DNA of 64,000 bases from the NCBI RefSeq assembly GCF_015169395.1, contig NZ_CP063458.1:2170001-2234000 (forward strand). Direction: 5' to 3'. The notes under the pieces were generated by a model that was given only the letters and a program-made list of their open reading frames with translations, did not search any database and was not told the DNA's origin. Source of the DNA: Humisphaera borealis. GTDB lineage: Bacteria > Planctomycetota > Phycisphaerae > Tepidisphaerales > Tepidisphaeraceae. The translations under genes were made by a program, and so were the position numbers. Positions 8,084-55,058 of this stretch are shown one piece after another; position 1 is the stretch's first letter, and every line of letters starts with the position of its first letter.

Positions 8084-8102
8084 GGCGTTACTCTCGGTAT
8101 CC

Positions 8103-8275
8103 CCTCTCCCCCGTACTCGGGAGAGAGGGCCAGGGTGAGGGGCCGGACGTCAGGCTTCGTGATTCGCAAAGGAAAACTGCTCCACCGCGAAGCCGTGCAA
8201 TCCTCTCAGGCGAGGCACGTCGTCTCACGTTCGGCCCCTCACCCCAACCCTTTCCCCTGAGTACAGGGGAGAGGG
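8103..8275. repeat. Inverted pair of CCTCTCCC hairpins with TACT/AGTA loops
   Basis: Hairpin 8103-8128 (stem CCTCTCCCCCG / CGGGAGAGAGG, loop TACT, one mismatch) and hairpin 8248-8275 (12-bp stem, loop AGTA, one G-T pair) are in opposite orientation. Their flanks (GGGTGAGGGGCCG and its complement) also pair. It lies between the PSD1 gene and its DUF1501 partner. Confidence 0.85.
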
Positions 8276-19328: not shown

Positions 19329-19352
19329 CTCTCCCCTGTACTCAGGGGAGAG
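19329..19352. repeat. Solo CTCTCCCCTG hairpin with TACT loop
   Basis: A perfect 10-bp stem around TACT, in the coxB leader 37 bp before its start. It has the same stem and loop as the pair at 8103-8275, but no inverted partner nearby. Confidence 0.85.
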
Positions 19353-39219: not shown

Positions 39220-39448
39220 GTGACACGGTGCTTCCAGCCCGTGGTCGCGGTACTCCGCGACATCGATCGGTACTCCGATCGAAAAAGCACGAGCGCAAGC
39301 GCTCAAACCGCACATCAAACCGCAGATCGAGCGCCGCAGCCCGAGATGCGCGGATCGCATACGAATCGCTTACGCTCTTGCTGCTTCGATCGGAGTACCG
39401 ATCGATGTCGCGGAGTACCGCGACCACGGGCTGGAAGCACCGTGCCAC
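39220..39448. repeat. Long palindromic element with four TACT/AGTA mini-hairpins
   Basis: Arms 39220-39281 and 39387-39448 (62 nt) are reverse complements with one mismatch. Each arm contains two perfect 7-bp hairpins, GTCGCGG-TACT-CCGCGAC and CGATCGG-TACT-CCGATCG. Weaker complementarity continues inward (AGCA-GAGCG-AAGCG) and about 10 bp outward, so nearly the whole 240 bp can fold as one hairpin. It lies between the MBL hydrolase and SGNH genes; no ORF is credible. Confidence 0.9.
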
Positions 39449-44238: not shown

Positions 44239-44473
44239 GGGTTCGTTCGGCAAAACGCCTCGGGTTCGTTTGGCGGCTGTGACTCTGGCATGGGCCTGTA
44301 CCCAAGCCCGTGTCTTCTGGCATCCGACGGTCACGGGCAAGCGTACTTGCCCTTTCCAAAACGGTCTGGCAACCGCAGGCGAGACGATCTCGGGTTCGTT
44401 CGGCGAAAAGCCTTGGGTTCGTTTGGCGGATCGGCTTGGGTTCGTTCGGACGAGTGACTTGGGTTCGTTCGGC
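44239..44473. repeat. Array of six 13-bp cores at 23-bp period
   Basis: GGGTTCGTTYGGC starts at 44239, 44262, 44392, 44415, 44438 (last base A) and 44461. Steps are 23 within the first two and within the last four, with a 130-bp gap between groups. The 10 bases between cores vary. The last copy ends 51 bp before the bioD start codon. Confidence 0.9.
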
Positions 44474-54858: not shown

Positions 54859-54896
54859 AAACGCAGCGGACACCGATCGGTGTCCGCTGCGTTTTT
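54859..54896 (+). terminator. Strong intrinsic terminator of the giant protein gene
   Basis: A perfect 17-bp stem (AAACGCAGCGGACACCG / CGGTGTCCGCTGCGTTT) with a 2-nt loop is followed by a TTTTT run. It lies 66 bp after the stop and is self-complementary, so it may act in both directions. Confidence 0.85.
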
Positions 54897-54964: not shown

Positions 54965-55058
54965 GGGTGCCATGGGCTGGCGTACTCGCCTGCCCGTGGC
55001 CGTGCGACTGCAGTCAGGCGTCGCCACGGGCAGCGGAGTACCGCAGCCCATGGCACCC
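54965..55058. repeat. Palindromic element with covarying TACT mini-hairpins
   Basis: Arms 54965-55000 and 55023-55058 (36 nt) pair with 4 mismatches. All 4 lie in an inner mini-hairpin: GGCG-TACT-CGCC in the left arm and GCGG-AGTA-CCGC in the right arm. Each arm thus keeps its own pairing. It lies in the 390-bp gap 54794-55183, after the terminator. Confidence 0.85.

Follow-up and report, generated by a model that had tools for sequence, protein, structure and literature searches.

Few REPtrons have been studied in vitro so far. The E. coli-type transposase TnpA-REP needs both a GTAG tag and a bulge in the stem, and in vitro is indifferent to the loop sequence (PMC8266576); particular loop bases are essential in two group 3 systems, REP-Sm of Stenotrophomonas and REP-Mb of Marinomonas, and the transposases of IS608 and ISDra2 contact a T in the loop (PMC8266576). 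Loop reading by RAYTs (REP-associated Y1 transposases) has thus been documented for two REP systems, and its kind is known. An earlier note on the DNA analysed here had proposed loop recognition for hairpins that share a G-TACT-C tip, and had contrasted them with REP elements. The first proposal holds in so far as a fixed loop sits on compensating stems, although such recognition is not new; the contrast falls, since these hairpins are themselves REP/REPIN elements, with a GTRG tag in most families, head-to-head pairs, and two families that flank RAYT genes. This identification is much safer than the mechanism favoured below. What is new is one loop common to three divergent RAYT lineages and to stem families without a known RAYT in one order. 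A literature search on this loop returned nothing relevant, and no precedent was found in it for one loop across several RAYT lineages.

The window, a stretch of 64,000 nucleotides from the soil planctomycete Humisphaera borealis (contig NZ_CP063458.1, positions 2,170,001 to 2,234,000), contains all the hairpins that had been listed. Hairpins of C type occur as a pair, at 8102..8129 on the + strand (CCCTCTCCCCC-GTACTC-GGGAGAGAGGG, with one mismatch) and at 8248..8275 with the GTACTC loop on the - strand, and singly at 19329..19352 on the + strand (CTCTCCCCT-GTACTC-AGGGGAGAG). An E-type REP at 54967..55000 (+ strand), GTGC-CATGGGC-(T.T)-GGC-GTACTC-GCC-GCCCGTG, belongs to the family of repeats flanking the RAYT gene L093, and is paired with a REP at 55023..55056 (- strand) that carries the same GTACTC loop on a GCG/CGC upper stem. 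Upstream of this pair, a perfect 16-bp hairpin followed by T-rich sequence (AAACGCAGCGGACACC-GATC-GGTGTCCGCTGCGTTT, 54859-54894) is likely an intrinsic terminator. Absent from the earlier list was a decayed A-type pair at about 44287..44352 (no strand assigned), with GTACCC and GTACGC tips: GGCATGGGCCT-GTACCC-AAGCCCGTG and, inverted, GGGCAA-GTACGC-TTGCCC.

The D element (39220-39448) is a REPIN of ~230 bp made of two inverted arms and a spacer, each arm consisting of a tagged hairpin (GTGA/GTGG with CACGG..CCGTG) followed by two GTACTC-tipped hairpins. In the left arm (39220..39282, + strand), read directly from the sequence, the tag GTGA adjoins hairpin 1, CACGG-T-GCT-TCC-AGC-C-CCGTG; hairpins 2 and 3 are GTCGCG-GTACTC-CGCGAC and TCGATCG-GTACTC-CGATCGA. 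The right arm (39386..39448, - strand) repeats these three hairpins in inverted orientation, behind the tag GTGG. Folding of the left arm as single-stranded DNA recovered all three (z = -5.2). In the spacer (39283..39385, no strand), the left arm is adjoined by the motif GAGCGCAAGCG and the right arm by the counterpart of this motif, which reads GAGCGTAAGCG on the - strand. A pattern based on D retrieved 17 arms in a relative, G005, and in the window's own genome (G000) only the two arms of the window; its reversed control had no matches in G000 or G005. The 17 arms of G005 keep the spacer motif, and their left and right stems differ (CCGCG and GCGTCG in hairpin 2; GGGCC, GGACG and GGATG in hairpin 3). 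Across 26 D arms scored in three genomes, the stems of hairpins 2 and 3 vary, and nearly all of the arms have GTACNC tips.

Such tandem hairpins, with one loop on varied stems, resemble a protein sponge, and GGA-loop hairpins titrate CsrA. A function at the RNA level, in which transcribed UACU/AGUA hairpins would stabilise mRNA ends or titrate an RNA-binding protein, is nevertheless very improbable: the sole Rfam match in the window was a tRNA, with no known structured RNA family for the hairpins, the association is with transposase genes, and, the elements being inverted pairs, transcripts of either strand would carry both versions of the loop.

Hairpin 1 of D resembles the repeats around a RAYT located inside dinG (CACGGGCT-TCC-AGCCCGTG around L087 in G000, GCATGGGCG-TCT-CGCCCATGC around L277 in G005), so that D looks like a REPIN of that RAYT carrying extra hairpins. 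In two genera a dinG-type helicase gene contains the RAYT domain in frame (L087, G000:C1:3416068-3416292; L277, G005), and the REPs flanking the domain suggest that a RAYT-REP unit was inserted as a whole. For Humisphaera borealis, order Tepidisphaerales, a TnpA-like domain inserted into dinG has already been reported (PMC11981726). A second type of fusion, with the RAYT at the C-terminus of a putative thiamine-phosphate synthase (ThiE, named by eye), was observed in three genera (L094, G000:C1:930440-930601; L263, G021; L274, G005); REPs with T(T)CY loops lie on either side of the RAYT portion.

Four of the six perfect TACT hairpins in the window come from one palindrome and are therefore not four independent cases. 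Loop statistics were taken from 1.65 Mb of the same genome, i.e. the window and 1.59 Mb more (23% of 7,189,892 bases, one contig), with whole-genome pattern searches in addition. This sample contains 394 perfect hairpins whose loop has 4 bases and whose stem has at least 7 bp. AGTA/TACT was the top tetraloop among them (38, the next loop reaching 16), so that the equal frequency which the earlier note would have taken as a refutation is not seen. Classified by closing hexamer, G-TACT-C was the commonest tip (37 of 394, on 11 different stems; shuffles, 0). When distinct 6-bp stems were counted per closing hexamer, which removes the effect of multi-copy repeats, GAGTAC ranked first with 11 stems and GCGTAC second with 7, against a mean of 1.6 per loop, and the count for GAGTAC was 0 in each of three shuffles. 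As a plain word, GTACTC is near expectation (544 seen, 511 expected), which locates the enrichment at hairpin tips. The idea that GTAC is an over-used word or a restriction motif was rejected, GTACTC occurring about as expected and the word GTAC being slightly depleted. Chance or a base-composition artefact, which the single palindrome could suggest within the window, is contradicted by the genome-scale counts and shuffles and by the recovery of such repeats in relatives with patterns whose loop was left free, and can for practical purposes be dismissed.

The fourth loop base is variable. In 58 hairpins the tip was GTACTC in 39, GTACGC in 11, GTACCC in 7 and GTACAC in 1, and the loop is more accurately written G-TAC(T>G>C)-C. 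The near-absence of A, counted over copies that are not independent, suggests that the first loop T, with which A would pair, must stay unpaired.

This tip is carried by several stem families, A (GTGG-CATGGGCA..GTACTC..TGCCCGTG), E (GTGC-CATGGGC-(T.T)-NNN-GTACTC-NNN-GCCCGTG), B (GTAG-GGTGGGC-GTACTC-GCCCACG) and C (CCCTCTCCCC-GTACTC-GGGGAGAGGG, then inward TTAGGGTGAGGGG). Pattern searches in G000 gave at least 178 matches for A/E, at least 37 for B (part of them with other loops) and at least 43 places for C. The tags are GTGG in A, GTAG in B, GTGC in E and GTGG/GTAG in D, with GTGA in one arm; C has none. Since A (GTGG-CATGGGC) and E (GTGC-CATGGGC) have a common lower stem and differ in the upper one, the earlier description of unrelated stems under a constant loop was too strong for A/E, as it was for the fourth loop base; the stems of B, C and the inner hairpins of D do differ from A/E, and the varied stems under one tip stand. 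A second B-type subfamily of G000 has the stem GTAG-GGTGGGC with a TTCA loop instead of GTACTC (C1:349950-349970, 377522-377542 and others).

Loop and stem variation were compared in 81 A/E copies among the matches listed, obtained with a pattern that left the loop free and fixed the lower stem, which is hence uninformative. The four positions on either side of the loop hexamer form 15 combinations, mostly paired, beside a loop T (T17) present in 81/81, a loop A (A18) in 80/81 and the closing G in 79/81. Changes on both sides affected 36 cells, compared to 13.5 in shuffles, with none of 500 shuffles as high. Stem variation is thus mostly compensatory while the loop and its closing G-C pair are fixed, in several stem families and genomes, and this combination points to recognition of the loop.

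Hairpin orientation is constrained as well. In opposite-strand pairs no more than 250 bp apart, the GTAC strand runs from outside to inside in 23 of 23 cases (head-to-head; 12 in G000, 6 in G005 and 5 in G020, whose stretches were partly chosen for B matches), and none is reversed. The profile Y1_Tnp (PF01797) has 12 matches in G000. Two of the genes, L093 and L095, exceed the cut-off of NCBIfam NF047646 (REP-associated tyrosine transposase), L089 scores below it, and L095 matches the solved TnpA-REP structure 4ER8 at 6e-33. The family profile, the HUH and Y motifs and a single copy per lineage, as characteristic of RAYTs, were all found, with one L095-type and one L089-type match in G000. The earlier note had envisaged a Y1 transposase next to such elements; indeed, L093 is directly adjoined on both sides by E-type repeats, and L095 by B-type repeats, all with GTACTC hairpins. 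Three imperfect GTACTC-tipped hairpins, of which only three copies were seen, flank the class-3-like L089. L093 and L095 are 26% identical, and L089 has no blastp match to either at E 1e-3. In relatives of the same order, where hairpins near RAYTs were called by simple rules that missed many loci, GTACTC hairpins with other stems are found on both sides of L278 and on one side of L281 (L095 relatives, G014), and flank L280 (an L093 relative, G005). The C-type repeats flank none of the RAYTs found. L091 was dropped as a RAYT with GTAC-loop flanks, its hairpin pair lying ~1 kb downstream. Two near-identical NHWH-type Y1 transposase genes in tandem (L084 and L085, G000:C1:4158951-4160170) are without adjoining GTAC-loop hairpins. 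The class 3 relatives L178, L180, L182 and L183 of other Planctomycetota have flanking hairpins with GNRA-type tips (GTAA, GCAA and GTGA on one strand), and this is a different loop rule.

The loop strictly follows neither genome nor RAYT. Patterns with a free loop found B stems with GTACTC in G000, G014, G016 and G020 and with other loops in G005, G008, G009 and G018, and A/E stems with GTACTC in G000 and with GTCTC/GTCCC in G014 and others; C stems with GTACTC occur in G000, G005 and G020. A loop fixed within each genome was rejected, since REP families with other loops occur in every one of G000, G005 and G014. Long-term fixation of the loop within a RAYT lineage was rejected too, since outside the order the relatives of L093 and L095 carry mostly other loops, the two exceptions, L108 and L110, being L093 relatives. 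The GTAC-loop families known so far occur mainly in this order. In a tree of 41 RAYTs, with loop labels assigned by hand from the flanking-hairpin results, the GTACB label requires ~6 changes to or from this loop, at least 4 of them forced by well-supported branches, and it is only slightly more clustered than expected by chance (33/500 shuffles as low). The tip has thus changed state several times in separate RAYT lineages. The RAYTs with T(T)CY loops, including the dinG and thiE fusions, form one clade; within the order, this clade of dinG-, thiE- and L090-type RAYTs has T(T)CY loops in 6/6, and L093 and L095 types have GTACBC in 5/6.

These distributions bear on a purely historical explanation, in which each family would keep the loop of its founder and loops would have passed between families by recombination or descent. 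Several families have GTACTC in two or more genera of the order, as expected under inheritance; A and E share their lower stem, and many copies within families are identical and may thus be young. Nevertheless, upper stems have turned over repeatedly beside an unchanged loop, and families differ in the inner stem adjoining the loop, leaving no obvious shared block to transfer. Moreover, the prevalence of other loops among RAYT relatives outside the order argues that at least part of the sharing arose separately, and history without function seems improbable.

That elements of quite different transposases have the same tip is the unusual point, and suggests that the tip itself is recognised. 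We favour, at a probability of roughly 0.55, direct recognition of the unpaired loop T/A/C by the RAYTs, the sharing of the loop being due to use in trans or to convergence. The REPs, mostly REPIN pairs, would be non-autonomous elements moved, now or formerly, as single-stranded hairpins by Y1 HUH transposases of the RAYT family. In this order of Planctomycetota the transposase would read both the tip G-TAC(T/G/C)-C and the GTRG tag immediately 5′ of the hairpin. For the stem, pairing would suffice, so that it could drift by compensatory changes, with the unpaired T-A-C and the closing G-C held and the first loop T kept unpaired, as in the loop T contact of IS608 and ISDra2. Families could have come to share the loop because one RAYT acts in trans or because separate RAYTs converged. 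Polarity, tag, neighbouring RAYT genes and a fixed loop on drifting stems all fit the loop-reading mode of the Sm and Mb systems; both the role of the RAYT as loop reader and the mobility of the elements are inferred from such patterns.

Several observations speak against reading by the RAYTs. The REPs of L283, which is 53% identical to L095, carry TC/TTCAT loops; B-type stems in related genomes bear a variety of other loops; in D the tag adjoins hairpin 1 and not hairpins 2 or 3, and C-type hairpins have no GTRG tag and flank none of the RAYTs found. Moreover, L095 resembles the E. coli-type RAYTs, which ignored loop sequence in vitro (PMC8266576). The participation of the E. coli-like L095 and the other loops of L283 keep a host factor as a live, if unlikely, rival: a protein other than a RAYT (a binder of single-stranded DNA or RNA hairpins, a nuclease or a nucleoid protein) would recognise the GTAC loop, and REPs of different origin would have been selected to carry it. 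Such a factor would suit a loop common to three RAYT lineages whose identity to each other in G000 is ~26% at most, its presence in C-type hairpins without a known RAYT and in the inner hairpins of D, and the repeated, partly forced label changes on the tree. It is, however, a putative protein with no named candidate, further abundant REP families in these genomes retain TTCA, TCC, TTCT and GTCTC loops, and a fixed polarity relative to the tag is expected of a transposase and not required of a host factor.

It is tempting to speculate that one loop-binding activity, either a RAYT acting in trans or a host protein, reads G-TACB-C tips on any stem and for any RAYT lineage, so that unrelated REP families of one order keep one loop code. 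We hold this only as a tentative possibility; if true, the four such tips of a D-type element would make it a multi-site substrate. Besides a means of finding such elements in Planctomycetota, the loop offers a ready-made comparison, several REP families of one genome having differing tags, stems and RAYTs with one loop. This bears on the spread of REPs and on the limits to which RAYT acts on which REP, and opens both loop recognition and cross-mobilisation between REPtrons to direct testing.

Compared to the class 3 TnpA-Y1 transposases described from Planctomycetes (PMC6006769), L089 is similar in its Y motif of class 3 type (Y----Q) and its atypical flanking hairpins; it differs in that a CnGA foot was described there, whereas GTACTC lies here in an imperfect hairpin (GCGCACGAAGCG-GTACTC-CGCG) whose stem has no CnGA foot. 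The end hairpins of the IS200/IS605 elements IS608 and ISDra2 are alike in that the transposase contacts a loop T, together with an unpaired stem base (PMC8266576), but the hairpins described here are non-autonomous repeats scattered through the genome, and the RAYT lineages studied best are each represented by a single gene in a genome. In the group 3 REPtrons Sm and Mb, specific loop bases are likewise required, with a critical loop T (T13 in Mb), yet each loop belongs to one REP family and the loops are GCT and TTTA, not TACB (PMC8266576); moreover, L095 resembles group 2 (E. coli). A likeness in overall organisation is seen with REP/REPIN/BIME elements and their RAYTs (TnpA-REP), i.e. short, dispersed, multi-copy palindromes in head-to-head pairs, flanking Y1 transposase genes, with a GTRG tag at the 5′ foot in most of the present families. 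Unlike those systems, the C family has no GTRG tag, D contains extra loop hairpins inside the pair, and a single loop spans the REPs of three RAYT lineages as well as families without a known RAYT.
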